DNA of 64,000 nt from Eleftheria terrae (GTDB lineage Bacteria > Pseudomonadota > Gammaproteobacteria > Burkholderiales > Burkholderiaceae_C). Shown piece after piece: positions 57,265 through 64,000 of the stretch. The DNA is taken from contig NZ_CP106951.1 of NCBI RefSeq assembly GCF_030419005.1, positions 1,240,001 to 1,304,000 of the forward strand, read 5' to 3'. Within the stretch, counting starts at the first letter, position 1, and each line of letters opens with the position of its first letter. The notes beneath the pieces were generated by a model. It was not told the DNA's origin. It saw only the letters and a list, made by a program, of their open reading frames with translations, and ran no database searches. The position numbers and the translations under genes are program-made.

Positions 57265-58299
57265 CTAGGCCGTCTGCGGCACCCGCTGGATGTACTCGCC
57301 GACCGAGATCTCCAGCCCCTGCGTGAGCGAGTAGGCCGGCTGGTAGCCCAGCACACGGCGCGCCTTGGAGATGTCGGCCAGGGCATGTCGCAGTTGCACC
57401 GCCTCGGCTTCCTCGTATTGCGGCGTGGTGATGCGCAGGCCCGCATGCTCGCGCCCCAAGGCCTGGGCGATCAGGGCGTGCAGCTGGTTCAAGGTGGTGC
57501 GCTCGCCGGCTGCGATGTTGAAGACCTGGTTGATCACCTCGGGGTGCTCGGACAAGGCCGCCTGCAGCGTGCCCTGGACGATGTTGCCGATGTAGCAGAA
57601 GTCGCGCGAGGATTCGCCGTCGCCTTCGATCACGCAACGGCGGCCCAGCCACATGTCGCGGGTCCAGCGCGGGATCAGGCGGGCGCAGCTGCCGTCGGCA
57701 TGCTCGCCCTGGCGCGGGCCGAACACCTCGAAGTAGCGCAGCCCCACGGTCTCGATGCCATAGCAGCGCGAGAACACGTCGGCATACAGCTCGTTGACGT
57801 ACTTGCTCACCGCCGCCGGCGTCTGCAGTCGGCCCATGCGCTCCTCGGTGGCTGGCACCGCGGCCGCATCACCATAAGCGGTGCTCGACGCGGCATAGAC
57901 GAAGCGACGCACATCGCAGGCACAGGCTGCCGTCAGCAGGTTGACGAAGGATGTCGCATTGGCGCGGTGAGCCCCGAGCGGATCGCGGATGGACCAGGGT
58001 GCGGCGTCGATGCCGGCCTGATGCAGCACCACTTCGACGCCGGTGCACAGCTCGTGGCAGATGTCAGGATCGGCCAAGTCGGCCTGCACGAAGCGATGCA
58101 GCGACCAGGCCGCCTCGCCCACCGCCTGCCGCACGCTGTTCAGCGTGGCGCGGCTGCCGGTGGAGAAGTTGTCGATGCTGGTGACGCGCTGGCCCGCGCG
58201 CAGCAAGGCCTCCAGCAGGTGTGAACCAATGAAGCCGGCACTGCCGGTGAGCAGCCAATGGCGCTGCCCCTGCGCCAGCCGGCCACGCACACTACGCAT
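57265..58299 (-). CDS. WbpP/TviC-like NAD-dependent epimerase lacking catalytic Tyr
   Basis: Extended SDR of 344 aa closely resembling UDP-GlcNAc 4-epimerases WbpP/TviC. It has an NAD fold (LLTGSAGFIGSHLLEALL), ASSTAYGD, SKYVNELYADVFSRCYG, LRYFEVFGPRQGEHADG, and EGDGESSRDFCYIGNIVQ. The catalytic motif normally reads P-Y-A-V-T/S-K; here it is P-A-A-V-S-K, with Ala162 in place of the Tyr, although Lys166 and Ser/Thr138-140 remain. The codon is GCG, so several bases differ from Tyr. Either an inactive or repurposed enzyme results. It is separated by 533 bp from the divergent megasynthase gene and may belong to that cluster. Confidence 0.85.
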   Translation of the reverse strand: MRSVRGRLAQGQRHWLLTGSAGFIGSHLLEALLRAGQRVTSIDNFSTGSRATLNSVRQAVGEAAWSLHRFVQADLADPDICHELCTGVEVVLHQAGIDAAPWSIRDPLGAHRANATSFVNLLTAACACDVRRFVYAASSTAYGDAAAVPATEERMGRLQTPAAVSKYVNELYADVFSRCYGIETVGLRYFEVFGPRQGEHADGSCARLIPRWTRDMWLGRRCVIEGDGESSRDFCYIGNIVQGTLQAALSEHPEVINQVFNIAAGERTTLNQLHALIAQALGREHAGLRITTPQYEEAEAVQLRHALADISKARRVLGYQPAYSLTQGLEISVGEYIQRVPQTA

Positions 58300-58832
58300 C
58301 ACCACCCCCAGCACCGGACAGGCTCCGGCAGGCGCAGCCTGGCCGCGCCAATGCGGCCGGGCGACGGCCCAGCCACGGCAAAGGCAGCCGTGCGCGCTGC
58401 AGTAAATAACAGGCGAAGTGGTCCAAGATGTCGGGGGAATGAAACGCCGGAGCGAGGCCGCAACGACAGCACCGCAGCAGAGGCAAGCAGAACAGGGCCC
58501 CGGCAGAAGCGGCAGTGGCTGACGAGTATCGGCAATGTGCACAGGCCCAGCACTCACCTATTTGAGGGGGCGCCGCATCAGGCGCTGAAAGCCCTGCGTC
58601 AGCCCAGCACCCATGCGCTTCCCGGCGCTCCGGGGTGGCGGGGCGGTGGCCAGGAGGAGTACCGACTCACTCATTCAGGGGGCCCCCTGAGGGAAACCCC
58701 GCACCCATAATCCCGCGACATCCTCCGCCCCACCCCTTTCAGGCTGGTGGGGCGGCACGACTTTTGGCGCCGCGGCAAGCCCCGGCGCGCCAGCCTGCGG
58801 GCTGAACCTGCATGCGATGGAGAAGCACCACA
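58300..58832. other. Divergent intergenic region upstream of megasynthase
   Basis: 533 bp with no convincing gene. It carries the 16-bp palindrome at 58675-58690 and a -10-like CATAAT at 58706-58711 without a clear -35. An open frame on the plus strand (58258-58710) has low-complexity composition and was not called. Confidence 0.5.
58675..58690. promoter_or_regulatory. 16-bp perfect palindrome before NRPS-PKS
   Basis: TCAGGGGGCCCCCTGA is perfectly self-complementary, 143 bp upstream of the megasynthase ATG and 16 bp before a CATAAT element. It is a candidate operator for a cluster regulator not present in the window. Confidence 0.45.
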
Positions 58833-61800
58833 ATGCGCGATGACGGACACAGGGCAGAGCCCGGCAGCGCGGTCAATGACCCGGCACCGCCGCCCCTGGG
58901 CCACTGGCTCCGGCGGGCAGCCCGGCATGCGCCCGGACAGGCTGCACTGGAGTCACCGGACGGCACCCTGGACTATGCGGCCCTGCTCGATGCGGTGACT
59001 GCTTTGGCCGGCCGCCTGCAGGCCGCCGGCATCAGGCCGGGCGAGCGCGTGGCGATTGCGGCGACCCGTTCTGCCCACACCATCGTGGCCATCCTGGCCG
59101 CGGTCGAAGCCGGCATCGGCTATGTGCCGCTCGACCTGGCCTACCCCGGCGATCGCCTGCAGGCCATGCTGCAGGACGCGCAACCACGTGCGGTCCTTGG
59201 CGAGCCGGCCACGCTGGCCCGGCTGCAAGCGCTGACCGGCGACTTTCCGACCCTGGAACACCCGGCCCCCCGCAGCGAGCTGCCGCATGCGGCCGAGGCC
59301 GACCTGGCCTACGTGCTCTTCACCTCCGGCTCCACCGGCCGGCCGAAGGGCGTCGCCATGGGCGCCGGACCGCTGCGCCACCTGGTGGCCTGGCATGCCG
59401 CGCACGAGCGGCTCGGGCTGCCGGCGCGCACGCTGCAGTTCGCACCGCTGTCCTTCGATGTGCACTTCCAGGAGATCTTCTCGACGCTGGCCTGCGCCGG
59501 CACGCTGGTGCTGCTGCCCGAGGCCGAGCGACGCGATCCGCAGCGCCTGCACCAGGCCCTGCTCACAGGACGCGTACAGCGGCTGTTCCTGCCGTACGTG
59601 GCGTTGCAGATGCTGGCCGAGGCCGCCCGCGGACAGCCGCCGCTGGCGCTGCTCGACGTGGTGAGCGCCGGCGAGCAGCTGCAGGTGACGCCCGCCATCC
59701 GCGCGCTGTTCGAGCAGCTGCCGCAGGCGGTGCTGCACAACCACTACGGGCCCACCGAAAGCCATGTGGTCACCGCCTTCGAGCTGTGCGGCAGCGCCCG
59801 CGACTGGCCCGAGATTCCGCCCATCGGCCGACCTCTGCCACATGTGCGGCTGGCGCTGCGGCATCCGGAGACGCTGGCGCCCGAGAGCGGCGACAGCGGC
59901 GAGCTGCTGCTGGGCGGCCAGACGCTGGCTCACGGCTACCTGGGCCGGCCTGAACTCACCGCCGAGCGCTTCCGCAATGACCTGGCCGGACTGCAGGGCC
60001 GCTGGTACCTGGCCGGCGACCTGGTGCGTCGCGACGCCGACGGTGTCTATACCTACCTGGGCCGTGCCGACCAGCAACTGAAGGTCGACGGCTTTCGCAT
60101 CGAGCCTGGCGAGATCGAGCTGGCGCTGATGCGCCACCCCCAGGTGCGGGACGCGGTGGTGACGGCGCCCGAGCTGCCCGGCGTCGGCCGCCAGCTGGTG
60201 GCGCATGTGGTGCCCCGCGACGGCGCGGAGGCCGACATGCTGCCGGCCACGCTGCGCCAGCACCTGCGCGGCTGCCTGCCCGAGTACATGGTGCCGGTGC
60301 GCTATCTGACGCTCGAACGCCTGCCCATGACGCCCAGCGGCAAGATCGATCGTCGCGGCCTGCCGCTGCCGCAGGCAGAGGCCCCGGCCGGCAGCGCCGC
60401 CGACCTGCCCGCGCTGGTGCGCGCCCTGTGGCAGGACCTGCTGGGGCTGGCCCACATCGACGACGAATCGAACCTCTTCGAGCTGGGCGCCAAGTCGCTG
60501 CTGGTGCTGCGTTTCGTGACGCGGCTGCGCGAGCACGGTGTGGACCACCTCGCCGTTGCCGACGTCTATGACCGCCCGACCCTGGCCGGGCTGTGCCGCG
60601 GCGCGCAGGGCGTCGGCCGACGCCGGGCCGGGGCCGGTCGTCCGGCCTCGCCGGGCGGCGGCATCGCCATCGTCGGCATGGCAGTGCGGGCGGCGGAGGC
60701 GAGCGATCTCGACACCTTCTGGCAGCAGCTGGTCGAGCAACGCGAAGGCATCCGCCACTTCAGGCCGGAGGAGCTCGATCCTTCGGTGCCCGAGGCCCTG
60801 CGCCGGCGGCCGAACTTCGTCGCCGCACGTGGCGTGCTGCAGGATGCCGACCGCTTCGACGCGGCCTTCTTCGGCATCTCGGCACGCGAAGCGAGCGTGC
60901 TCGACCCGCAGCAGCGCCTCTTCCTCGAACTCTGCTGGAGCGCGCTGGAGCATGCCGGCATCGACCCGCGACAGGGCGACGCGCGGGTGGGCGTCTACGC
61001 CGGCGTGGCCAACAACAGCTACATCACCGCGCTGCGCGCCGAGAACCCGGAGCTGGCGCAGCAGTTCGGCGAGTTCGCCACCATGCTGGCCAGCGAGAAG
61101 GACTATGTCGCCACCCGGGTGGCCAACCGGCTGAACCTGACCGGGCCGGCCGTCAGCGTGCACACCGCCTGCTCCACCGGGCTGGTGGCGGTGGCCCAGG
61201 CCTGGCACGCGCTGGCCGACGGCCAGGCCGACGTGGCGCTGGCCGGCGGCGCCACCGTCATCGTGCCGCAGGCGGGCGGCTACCTGCATGTGGAAGGCGG
61301 CATGGAATCCGCCGACGGGCATTGCCGGCCCTTTGACGCGGAGGCCAGCGGCACCGTCTTCGGCAGCGGCGGCGCGGTGGTGGTGCTCAAGCGCCTGGAA
61401 GATGCGCTGGCCGAAGGCGACACCATCTACGGCGTGATCCGCGGTGTCGGTCTGAACAACGACGGTGGCGACAAGGCCAGCTTCACCGCGCCCAGCGTCG
61501 GCGGCCAGGCGGCGGCCATCCGGATGGCGCTCGATCATGCCGGCGTGAGCGCGCGCAGCATCGGCTACGTGGAGGCGCATGGCACCGGCACCGCGCTGGG
61601 CGACCCGATCGAGATTGCCGCCCTCACCCGCGCCTGGCGGCCGGATACCGCCGACTCACAGTACTGCGGCATCGGTTCGCTGAAGAGCAACCTCGGCCAC
61701 ACGATCGCCGCGGCCGGCGTGCTCGGCCTGGTGAAGGCCACGCTGTCCCTGCACCACGAAGCCATTCCGGCCACCCTGCATTTCCGGCGGCCGAACCCCG

Positions 61801-64000
61801 AGATCGACTTCGCCGCGACGCCCTTCCACGTCATCGCCGCCCACACGCCGTGGCCGCGTGGCGAGCAGCCGCGCCGGGCCGCGGTGAGCTCCTTCGGCGT
61901 CGGCGGCACCAATGCGCACCTGGTGATCGAGGAAGCCCCGCCTGCCGCCCCCAGCGCCGAGGCCGCCGGCCCGTTCCTGCTGCCGCTGTCGGCCCGGACA
62001 CGCGAGGCTGCGTTGCAGCGTGCGGCCGACCTGGCCCGCCATCTCGAAGCGCATCCCGGGCTGTCGCTGGCCGACGTGGCCAGCACACTCATGCGTGGCC
62101 GCCAGCCGATGGCGCAGCGCCTGGCCGTCGTTGCACGCGATCGGTCGGACGCGGTCGATGCGCTGCGGGCCTTGCGCCACACCACGGCGGCCCAGGGCCG
62201 TCCGCGGCTGGTCTACCTGTTCCCGGGCCAGGGTGCCCAGCATCCCGGCATGGCGCGCGGCCTGTACGACGAGATACCGGCCTTCCGCGAGGCACTCGAC
62301 CGCTGCCTGGCGCTGGCCGAGCCGCACCTGGGCAGCGACTTCAAAGCCTGGCTGGTGACGGCGGCTCCCGACGACAGCGCGGTCGCCGAGCGCCTGGCCG
62401 AGACCCGCCATGCCCAAGTGGCGCTGTTCTGCATGTCGTATGCGCTGGCGGCCTGGCTGGACACGCTGGGAGTCAAGCCCCAGGCCCTGATCGGCCACAG
62501 CGTCGGCGAATACGCCGCGGCTTGCCAGGCCGGCGTCTTCTCGCTCGCCGATGCAATGACGGCCGTCATCTCGCGCGGCCAGGCGATGTTCGAGCAGCCC
62601 CCCGGCGCGATGCTGGCGGTGCGTGCGGCCGGTGACACCGTGCGCGCCCTGCTGCCTGAAGGCGTGGAGATCGCCGGCGAGAACGCGCCGTCGCTCACCG
62701 TGGTGGCTGGCAGCTTCGACGCCATCGACGCCTTCGCGCGCCAGCTCGAGGCGCAGGATATCGGCAGCACCCGGCTGCGGGTCTCGCATGCCTTCCACAG
62801 TGCCGCCATGGAAGGGGCCCTGCCCCAGGTGGCGGCGGCCCTGCAGCCGCTGGTGCTGCGGGCGCCGCGCCTGCCGGTGTATTCCTGCGTCAGCGGAGCG
62901 CCGCTGCAGGCGCACGAAGCCACCGACCCTCACTACTGGGCCCGCCAGGTCCGCGCCAGCGTGCAGTTCAGCCGCGCGGTGCAAGCCGAGCTGGCCCAGG
63001 ACAGCGAGACCGTCTTCGTCGAAGTCGGTCCCGGCCAGGCATTGACCGCGCTGCTGCGCCAGCACCGCACGGCAGGCCAGGCGGTGCCTCGCATCGTGCC
63101 TCTGCTCGGCCCGGCCCAGGCGCCGGGTGATGCGGCCGTCAATGCGCTGGCCGGCCTGGGTGCCCTGTGGTGTGCCGGCGCGGAGCTGGCCTGGCCGGTG
63201 GCCGCCAGTGCCCGCCGCGTCGCGCTGCCGACCTACCCCTTCGCCGGCGAGCGCCACTGGTTCGCGCGCCGGCCCCTTGCACAGGCCGCCCTCGCGGTCT
63301 CCGCCGGCGGTGCCACAAGCGCCGCCGCCCCTTCTTCTTTGCCCCCAGCCGAGGCTGCCACGACCATGAGCCGACTCCCCCGCCTAGCCCAGGAACTCAC
63401 GCGCATCCTCAGCGATGTGTCCGGACTGGCCGCCGATGAGATGAGCCCGGGCGCCAGCTTCGTCGACCAGGGCCTGGACTCGCTCTCGCTGACCCAGGCA
63501 ACGTTGGAGCTGGAGCGGGTGTTCGGCCTCAAGCTGCGCTTCCGCCGCCTGCTCGAGGACCTGGACACGGTCGACAAGCTGGCCGGCTTCCTCGACGCCG
63601 AGCTGCCGGCCGACCGCTTCGCACCGGCGGCCCCGGCCGCTCCCGTTGCCGCGCCGGCCCCGGCCGGCGAGCCGACGGCCACAGCGGTCGCCAATGCCTC
63701 GCCGGTCCTGCCGCAGGCTGCCCTGCCGGTGATGCAGCTGGCCGTCGGGCCGGGCCAGCCGGGCGCGGCCAGCGGGCTGCAACTGGTGATCCAGCAGCAA
63801 ATGCAGCTGATGTCCCAGCAGCTCGCCGTGCTGGCCGGTCAGCCACTGGCCGGTGCAGCGGTGCCGGCCATGGCGCCAGCGGCCCTGCCCGCGCCGGTGG
63901 CCGGGCCGGCGCCTGCCGCCACCGCAGGCGCCGCCCCCGCAGCCACTGCAAACGAGCCGGCCCAGCCGTCCATCAAGGCCTTGGTGGAAAAGCCCTTCGG
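58833..64000 (+). CDS. Hybrid NRPS-PKS megasynthase, A(Pro)-PCP-KS-AT-ACP-... (3' end outside window)
   Basis: The first 1722 codons of an assembly-line enzyme. Adenylation domain (about 20-510): VLFTSGSTGRPKG, NHYGPTESHVV, PSGKIDRR; its specificity residues read D-V-Q-F-V-A-H-V-V-K, one change from a known proline code (DVQFIAHVVK). PCP: GAKSL, Ser about 554. Ketosynthase (610-1040): TACSTG with Cys about 778, EAHGTGT, KSNLGHT. Acyltransferase (about 1125-1420): GHSVG Ser about 1222 and HAFH, the malonyl-type motif. ACP: GLDSLS, Ser about 1550. An Ala/Pro linker with a Gln-rich helix follows. No condensation domain precedes A, so this is a starter module. Start at ATG 58833, GGAG upstream. 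Confidence 0.95.
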   Translation, partial: MRDDGHRAEPGSAVNDPAPPPLGHWLRRAARHAPGQAALESPDGTLDYAALLDAVTALAGRLQAAGIRPGERVAIAATRSAHTIVAILAAVEAGIGYVPLDLAYPGDRLQAMLQDAQPRAVLGEPATLARLQALTGDFPTLEHPAPRSELPHAAEADLAYVLFTSGSTGRPKGVAMGAGPLRHLVAWHAAHERLGLPARTLQFAPLSFDVHFQEIFSTLACAGTLVLLPEAERRDPQRLHQALLTGRVQRLFLPYVALQMLAEAARGQPPLALLDVVSAGEQLQVTPAIRALFEQLPQAVLHNHYGPTESHVVTAFELCGSARDWPEIPPIGRPLPHVRLALRHPETLAPESGDSGELLLGGQTLAHGYLGRPELTAERFRNDLAGLQGRWYLAGDLVRRDADGVYTYLGRADQQLKVDGFRIEPGEIELALMRHPQVRDAVVTAPELPGVGRQLVAHVVPRDGAEADMLPATLRQHLRGCLPEYMVPVRYLTLERLPMTPSGKIDRRGLPLPQAEAPAGSAADLPALVRALWQDLLGLAHIDDESNLFELGAKSLLVLRFVTRLREHGVDHLAVADVYDRPTLAGLCRGAQGVGRRRAGAGRPASPGGGIAIVGMAVRAAEASDLDTFWQQLVEQREGIRHFRPEELDPSVPEALRRRPNFVAARGVLQDADRFDAAFFGISAREASVLDPQQRLFLELCWSALEHAGIDPRQGDARVGVYAGVANNSYITALRAENPELAQQFGEFATMLASEKDYVATRVANRLNLTGPAVSVHTACSTGLVAVAQAWHALADGQADVALAGGATVIVPQAGGYLHVEGGMESADGHCRPFDAEASGTVFGSGGAVVVLKRLEDALAEGDTIYGVIRGVGLNNDGGDKASFTAPSVGGQAAAIRMALDHAGVSARSIGYVEAHGTGTALGDPIEIAALTRAWRPDTADSQYCGIGSLKSNLGHTIAAAGVLGLVKATLSLHHEAIPATLHFRRPNPEIDFAATPFHVIAAHTPWPRGEQPRRAAVSSFGVGGTNAHLVIEEAPPAAPSAEAAGPFLLPLSARTREAALQRAADLARHLEAHPGLSLADVASTLMRGRQPMAQRLAVVARDRSDAVDALRALRHTTAAQGRPRLVYLFPGQGAQHPGMARGLYDEIPAFREALDRCLALAEPHLGSDFKAWLVTAAPDDSAVAERLAETRHAQVALFCMSYALAAWLDTLGVKPQALIGHSVGEYAAACQAGVFSLADAMTAVISRGQAMFEQPPGAMLAVRAAGDTVRALLPEGVEIAGENAPSLTVVAGSFDAIDAFARQLEAQDIGSTRLRVSHAFHSAAMEGALPQVAAALQPLVLRAPRLPVYSCVSGAPLQAHEATDPHYWARQVRASVQFSRAVQAELAQDSETVFVEVGPGQALTALLRQHRTAGQAVPRIVPLLGPAQAPGDAAVNALAGLGALWCAGAELAWPVAASARRVALPTYPFAGERHWFARRPLAQAALAVSAGGATSAAAPSSLPPAEAATTMSRLPRLAQELTRILSDVSGLAADEMSPGASFVDQGLDSLSLTQATLELERVFGLKLRFRRLLEDLDTVDKLAGFLDAELPADRFAPAAPAAPVAAPAPAGEPTATAVANASPVLPQAALPVMQLAVGPGQPGAASGLQLVIQQQMQLMSQQLAVLAGQPLAGAAVPAMAPAALPAPVAGPAPAATAGAAPAATANEPAQPSIKALVEKPF

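Follow-up and report, generated by a model that had tools for sequence, protein, structure and literature searches.

What does the hybrid NRPS/PKS whose gene begins close to the end of the window (the whole stretch of 64,000 nucleotides analysed, lying at G000:C2:1240001-1304000 in a four-contig genome of 7.03 Mb) assemble, and what is its product used for? An initial annotation of the window had described a proline-primed starter protein. On the sequence comparisons presented below, we lean somewhat towards a short, MycA-like hybrid NRPS/PKS primed with proline, whose product would probably serve or decorate an exopolysaccharide.

Gene and domain organization of the NRPS/PKS

The NRPS/PKS frame lies on the forward strand and starts at ATG 58812 or at ATG 58833, the latter preceded by the sequence GGAGAAG. 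It runs past the window edge, which corresponds to residue ~1729 (residues are counted from ATG 58812), and in the flanking genome it reaches position 71990 in window-extended coordinates (G000:C2:1298812-1311990; L007:813-13991), encoding 4,392 residues. The features of the locus are listed in Table 1.

Table 1. Features of the NRPS/PKS locus. Coordinates marked "extended" continue the numbering of the window into the flanking genome.
Feature	Coordinates	Strand	Evidence
TviC-like UDP-sugar C4 epimerase, divergent upstream neighbour	57265..58557	-	score below TviC cut-off
5' 39% of the NRPS/PKS gene	58812..64000	+	ORF and flanking genome
A1 adenylation domain, code DVQFVAHVVK (proline)	58902..60365	+	Pfam, code reading, published Pro codes
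PCP1 (LGAKSL)	60384..60593	+	Pfam and motif
KS with Cys-His-His	60654..61940	+	Pfam and motifs
AT, GHSVG and HAFH	62199..63131	+	Pfam and motifs
ACP (GLDSL)	63384..63599	+	Pfam and motif
Ala/Pro- and Gln-rich linker leading to the aminotransferase domain	63600..64000	+	sequence, Pfam
hyd2	71987-72802 extended		profile/sequence scan
hyd1	72799-73686 extended		profile/sequence scan
Sfp/HetI-type PPTase	73816-74697 extended		
Polysaccharide deacetylase	75002-76198 extended		
GT4	76235-77368 extended		
Flippase-like protein	77467-79005 extended		by eye

In the window part of the protein, Pfam matches far over the cut-offs were obtained for AMP-binding, AMP-binding_C, ketoacyl-synt N and C, Acyl_transf_1 and two PP-binding domains, and Pfam found no condensation domain before A1 in this part. 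Together with the active-site motifs of A1 (TSGSTG 171, PSGKIDR 508), PCP1 (LGAKSL 558), KS (ACS 786, HGTGT 923, KSNLGH 958), AT (GHSVG 1228, HAFH 1326) and ACP (GLDSL 1554), these matches confirm the order A-PCP-KS-AT-ACP without a leading C domain, as initially annotated. The HAFH reported there for the AT, which we take to be the malonyl-type motif, was thus recovered, and the Gln-rich stretch and KALVEKPFG at the window end are both present. The prediction that this linker precedes a PLP-dependent aminotransferase was borne out, since the next domain (AMT, residues ~1735-2196, beyond the window, with a TYGK motif at residue 2019) is a class-III aminotransferase of the MycA type. Its Pfam match has a value of 1.1e-45, and its best PDB matches, 6kfu (9.3e-113) and 6kfm (3.6e-112), are MycA of mycosubtilin synthase.

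Extension past position 64000, a check named beforehand, uncovered the further biosynthetic domains AMT-C-A-PCP-C-(eroded A)-PCP. Pfam assigns to the full 4,392-residue protein three AMP-binding, two Condensation and four PP-binding domains, one KS, one AT and one class-III aminotransferase stretch; neither a KR nor a TE was found among the matches. The full order is A1(Pro)-PCP1-KS-AT-ACP-AMT-C1-A2(Gly)-PCP2-C2-A3*(eroded)-PCP3, in which the C1 motif is SHLVFDG, with the first His replaced, and the C2 motif is HHMVWDG. The glycine module, the eroded A3, the hydrolase pair and the exopolysaccharide setting described below go beyond the initial annotation.

Adenylation domain codes

Placing the ten specificity positions, which we take from the GrsA numbering, on A1 gave the same ten-letter code as had been read before, DVQFVAHVVK. 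In the table of PMC9113097, DVQYVAHVVK, DVQYIAHVVK and DVQFVAQVVK are assigned to proline, so that the code of A1 is indeed one conservative change (F/Y) from a known proline code, DVQYVAHVVK. A1 therefore combines the two features of a proline starter, having no C domain upstream and carrying a proline code. A2 reads DILQLGMVW(K), a glycine code, with positions 299 and 331 read by position and not by automatic columns; relatives read DIL.LGMVW, and the near code DILQLGMIWK is assigned to glycine in PMC12283262. A3 has no TSGSTG and shares 24% identity with A2 over 299 residues.

For the analysis of starters in other species, 84,980 species genomes were scanned for the AMT and the best 80 loci were taken, more being present. 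A starter A domain in cis was found in 61 of these 80 loci, the remaining 19 either lacking an in-frame A domain or being cut. The A domain comes first in 60/61 (G007, outside this set, begins with C), a strict proline-like pattern is present in 42/61, and DVQFMAQVVK alone accounts for 22/61; many Bacteroidota starters are Pro-like. Among the 19/61 starters outside the strict pattern, one is unreadable, five are near variants (DVHFMAQVVK, DVQIISQVVK, and DVQIFSQVVK in three) and the others are divergent, presumably including Val-, Thr- and Gln-like codes. Judged by these predicted codes, the six-domain starter is of general use, mostly in combination with proline-like codes.

The NRPS/PKS family and its terminal module

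An AMT tree of 89 rows contains a proteobacterial clade of 30 rows (support 100/100) with members from Sphaerotilaceae, a Comamonadaceae MAG, a Rhodocyclaceae MAG, a Nevskiaceae MAG, Lysobacteraceae, Rhodanobacteraceae and unplaced MAGs; the Bacteroidota AMTs form a separate clade. The assignment of our NRPS/PKS to this proteobacterial family on sequence grounds is new and well supported, and literature searches found no report of the proline-primed NRPS/PKS family. Removal of the duplicates G060 (=G002) and G061 (=G003) from 28 genomes left 26 family genomes. At 65-89% identity, the AMT ranks with the best conserved domains across the family. G007, from the same genus as our organism, departs from the common plan: a C domain precedes a glycine-code starter, and the search pattern for the AMT lysine had no match. 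DSRFMGEVVK is the code of the second NRPS of G076 and of the starter of G080, and the A2 code of G063 begins with DM.. in place of DILQ. A second NRPS gene is present at the locus in G001 and G008, with an extra module whose code is DAWQ[IV]GFDAK.

The C-terminus of our protein ends in a C domain, a degenerate A domain and a T domain, the C and T motifs being kept. The third A domain is likewise eroded or undetected in G003, G006, G007, G063, G072 and G074, is absent from the C-T endings of the Lysobacteraceae G064, G070, G071 and G079, is divided over two frames in G001, and is intact with a Gly code in G002, G008, G062 and G065-G069. Its erosion in separate AMT lineages (our organism with G006, G003, G063, G072 and G074) suggests that A3 is dispensable.

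Neighbouring genes and the hydrolase pair

The divergent TviC-like protein, a predicted nucleotide-sugar enzyme, would fit a polysaccharide setting, and a homologue occurs somewhere in 11/23 family regions. Farther downstream than the genes of Table 1 lie a P450, glycosyltransferases and a Wzy_C protein. About 30-39 kb beyond the end of the NRPS follow genes of the XrtA type that score over NCBIfam cut-offs, for an ATPase, a tyrosine kinase, chain length, export and a priming transferase. The models whose curated cut-offs are exceeded by the neighbouring exopolysaccharide (EPS) genes are TIGR03007, 03013, 03015, 03018 and 03027. One of the genes (L009:4169-6253; extended 102168-104252, - strand) encodes a 694-residue fusion of a TIGR03015 ATPase (1-267) with a UDP-GlcNAc 2-epimerase (PF02350, 369-675). 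Three similar-looking proteins are also encoded near the polysaccharide genes (extended 82546-84693, 84635-86422 and 99806-101695, - strand); Pfam recognizes a right-handed beta-helix in two of them and none in the third, and two have Pro-rich PAPTPP repeats.

Two predicted hydrolases directly follow the NRPS/PKS. Among 25 family regions (G077 not included), hyd1 comes after the NRPS in 21, preceded by hyd2 in 20 of them (G075 has hyd1 only); the pair lies ~12-16 kb off on the other strand in G076 and G080, and was not found at the search threshold in G070 and G064. The scores of hyd1 and hyd2 are under the curated cut-offs of TIGR03100 (70.4 vs 168.45 bits) and TIGR03101 (93.6 vs 202.75 bits), respectively. 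The motif G-x-C-S-[GA] is present in 22/22 distinct hyd1 proteins, and Cys114, Asp266 and His267 are invariant in 26/26 rows (24 NRPS loci and two XrtA cassettes). In a structure model of hyd1 (pLDDT 89.8, pTM 0.86), Cys114 is located at a strand-helix elbow between strand 107-113 and helix 115-126, and we predict that this invariant Cys is the nucleophile. The corresponding position of hyd2 is Arg in 15/20 and Gly in 5/20 distinct proteins, and the nucleophile has thus been lost. In a Hydrogenophaga MAG (L151/L152), two NRPS clusters face each other, each with its own hydrolase pair.

Co-occurrence with exopolysaccharide genes

A matrix polysaccharide is a setting in which NRPS/PKS products are seldom placed. 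Exactly one TIGR03007 chain-length gene over the cut-off is present in each of the 26/26 family genomes, and in 17/26 it is on the contig of the AMT, 9.1-60.8 kb away (distances by subtraction). The gene occurs in 108/399 genomes (27%) of our organism's own order, a baseline drawn from this order only, to which the Lysobacteraceae and Rhodanobacteraceae members do not belong; the AMT itself exceeds the threshold in 1/399 of these genomes, our own. Among 60 genomes (our own and relatives), in which family membership was defined by an AMT identity of at least 69%, TIGR03007 was detected in 7/7 family members and 13/53 others (one-sided chance ~2e-4), counts that are not independent, as all seven family genomes belong to one genus. 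More distant AMTs (45-52%) are present in 4/53 of the others, with TIGR03007 ~9 kb away in G013, on another contig in G044 and G056, and absent in G024.

The linkage was observed across Sphaerotilaceae, a Rhodocyclaceae MAG, Lysobacteraceae and Rhodanobacteraceae, with differing gene orders. Aquimonas (G064), which is not among the 17 linked genomes, has a priming sugar transferase homologue ~8 kb upstream (L025). Queries for core EPS genes had no match around the NRPS in G063, G065-G069, G072 and G074, where TIGR03007 is on another contig; these eight unlinked genomes fall within one 9-row AMT subclade (96/90). An exosortase over the XrtA cut-off was found in 0/26 family genomes; weaker matches (E<=1e-10) occur in 15/26, the only one in our own genome being 3.3 Mb off on the contig. 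In G067:C25 and G074:C27, from two of the eight unlinked genomes, a sub-cut-off exosortase-like match lies at a distance of ~50 and ~40 kb, respectively, from the AMT. In Aquabacterium commune (L144), NRPS-hyd2-hyd1 are followed by a Cupin_8 protein and a GDSL-like protein that scores under the Pfam cut-off, with methyltransferase-like and PPTase-like proteins recognized by eye and no polysaccharide core gene adjoining.

Canonical TIGR03100 proteins over the cut-off are present in 9/60 genomes, all nine with TIGR03007 and none among the seven family genomes. Of five such canonical regions, three from NRPS-less relatives (L165, L166 and L168) were inspected, and in all three a putative adenylating ligase is oriented divergently from hydrolase 2 and hydrolase 1; in two of these three an 83-residue carrier was recognized by eye between the ligase and the hydrolases. 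From this gene order, we read the NRPS/PKS as taking the place of the ligase and carrier. We know of no explanation of the role of this cassette in exosortase-A polysaccharide loci, and propose that it may make carrier-bound acyl groups for the polysaccharide. The sequence comparisons make a good case for a functional tie of the assembly line to the exopolysaccharide, on which we are evenly divided.

Comparison with known systems

The closest precedent is MycA of mycosubtilin synthase, with BmyA and ItuA of the iturin family, whose order is similar: adenylating loader-carrier-KS-carrier-AMT-C-A-PCP. The KS-(AT)-ACP-AMT block in cis, with an AMT homologous to that of MycA, is present in our protein. 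In place of a fatty-acyl-AMP ligase, the loading position is taken by an A domain for amino acids, whose code is a proline code. MycA is described as loading a free fatty acid and receiving malonate from the separate transacylase FenF, whereas our protein would load proline through an A domain, has a cis AT and a Gly as next residue, and would make a short chain. That our protein follows the MycA plan in a proline-primed form, with a proline A domain replacing the fatty-acyl ligase, is a reading that we hold with considerable confidence.

The terminal module resembles that of the glidonin synthetase GdnB of S. brevitalea DSM 7029, C13-A*-T13-TE, which also has a terminal C, a partial A and a T domain; the section of PMC10587159 on this module shows by mutagenesis and in vitro assay that C13-A*-T13 takes free putrescine. 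In contrast to GdnB, our protein has no cis TE, and discrete hydrolases come next. With the XrtA polysaccharide loci it shares the hydrolase 2/1 homologues, in the same order after a carrier, and EPS genes over cut-offs; it differs in that a 4,392-residue assembly line replaces a putative single acyl-CoA ligase and small carrier, in that its hydrolases are under the TIGR03101/TIGR03100 cut-offs, and in that no exosortase exceeds the XrtA cut-off. The Bacteroidota relatives (e.g. Mucilaginibacter L071) have the same six-domain starter, A-T-KS-AT-T-AMT, but in two proteins, the second being C-A-T-TE with a cis Ser-thioesterase, plus a PPTase. No match to the hydrolase pair was found in the Bacteroidota loci. 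The Bacteroidota relatives examined have an ordinary Ser thioesterase at their end, which makes a free product likely there. Literature searches found no report of these two-protein lines. Of these lines (L071, in which the domains were scanned, L062, L067, L081 and others), several lie beside sugar-transferase (PF02397 in L071) or glycosyltransferase genes.

Proposed assembly line and alternative explanations

A1 would load L-Pro onto PCP1, and the KS would then elongate the prolyl unit, using malonate supplied by the cis AT, so that 3-oxo-3-(pyrrolidin-2-yl)propanoyl-ACP is formed. The PLP-dependent AMT would turn the ketone into an amine, no KR having been found, and C1-A2-PCP2 would add glycine (code DILQLGMVWK). 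Each of these steps is supported by the domain sequences. The resulting vicinal diamine, 3-amino-3-(pyrrolidin-2-yl)propanoyl-Gly, may then pass to C2-(eroded A3)-PCP3, and we infer that its release is aided by two separate proteins, the alpha/beta hydrolase hyd1 with its Cys nucleophile and the nucleophile-less hyd2, which would replace a cis thioesterase. The expected product would be 3-amino-3-(pyrrolidin-2-yl)propanoyl-glycine or a derivative. Gene order and co-occurrence suggest that it is joined to the Wzx/Wzy-type exopolysaccharide encoded at the same locus, or used together with it, and that the NRPS/PKS may be an elaborate form of the cassette found in exosortase-A polysaccharide loci, which consists of ligase, carrier, hydrolase 2 and hydrolase 1. 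Covalent decoration, in which C2 or the Cys-nucleophile hydrolase would transfer the proline-derived vicinal-diamine aminoacyl-glycine to the polysaccharide or to an amino-sugar precursor, is a specific version that we consider rather unlikely; if true, the ligase/carrier/hydrolase cassette of XrtA loci, which is simpler, would represent this process in its minimal form. On the proposed reading, a conserved assembly line can be assigned a monomer, predicted to be a proline-derived vicinal diamine, and a matrix-polysaccharide setting.

The same chemistry could also yield a free, diffusible product, such as a signal, an alkaloid or a diamine dipeptide; the proximity of the polysaccharide genes would then come only from a shared variable, matrix-related region. 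We give this a substantial but minor share of our confidence: it is favoured by the eight of 26 genomes without a visible polysaccharide link, by the cis Ser-thioesterase of the Bacteroidota relatives examined, and by the A. commune cluster, whose own PPTase-like, Cupin_8 and GDSL-like genes suit a free metabolite, but the co-occurrence of TIGR03007 in 26/26 genomes against 27% in the own order, the linkage across four families with different gene orders, and the relationship of the hydrolase pair to that of XrtA-type loci argue against it. Compatible with the preferred exopolysaccharide reading is a terminal variant that we rate as plausible, though short of probable, in which C2 releases the chain as an amide via a free amine (a polyamine or amino sugar) and A3 and PCP3 are structural only, as in the glidonin C13-A*-T13, which joins free putrescine (PMC10587159, in the part on this module) and comes from DSM 7029, a host of the orthologue. 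The C2 motif and the PCP3 Ser are kept though the A3 motifs are lost, and the A-less C-T ending recurs in Lysobacteraceae; however, in the several relatives with an intact Gly-code third A, C2 would be a normal elongation domain, and loading of PCP3 in trans is equally possible.

Two further explanations concern the assembly line itself. Before it is aminated, the prolyl beta-ketothioester might cyclise by itself, forming a pyrrolizidine-dione or a tetramate, with the AMT and later modules little or not used. A secondary amine can attack a thioester, and the free one here is positioned to do so, but our protein keeps the AMT Lys as well as intact motifs in the C, A2 and PCP domains downstream, and the AMT is highly conserved in the family, which makes this very improbable. 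That the megasynthase is decaying and non-functional hardly deserves credence: the erosion of A3 would agree with it, but the 4,392 codons are stop-free, the remaining motifs are intact, and the same erosion recurs in relatives that retain the rest.

Orthologue in Schlegelella brevitalea DSM 7029

The proposal is testable, as the tractable S. brevitalea DSM 7029 (G006) has an orthologous NRPS at about 3,726,050-3,739,050 (stop to stop). The BGC deletions in the list given in PMC8302735 leave this orthologue out, and no named product for it was found in the literature sections consulted. NRPS/PKS domains are also present in this strain at 2,677,295-2,694,602, the glidobactin stretch of PMC8302735.
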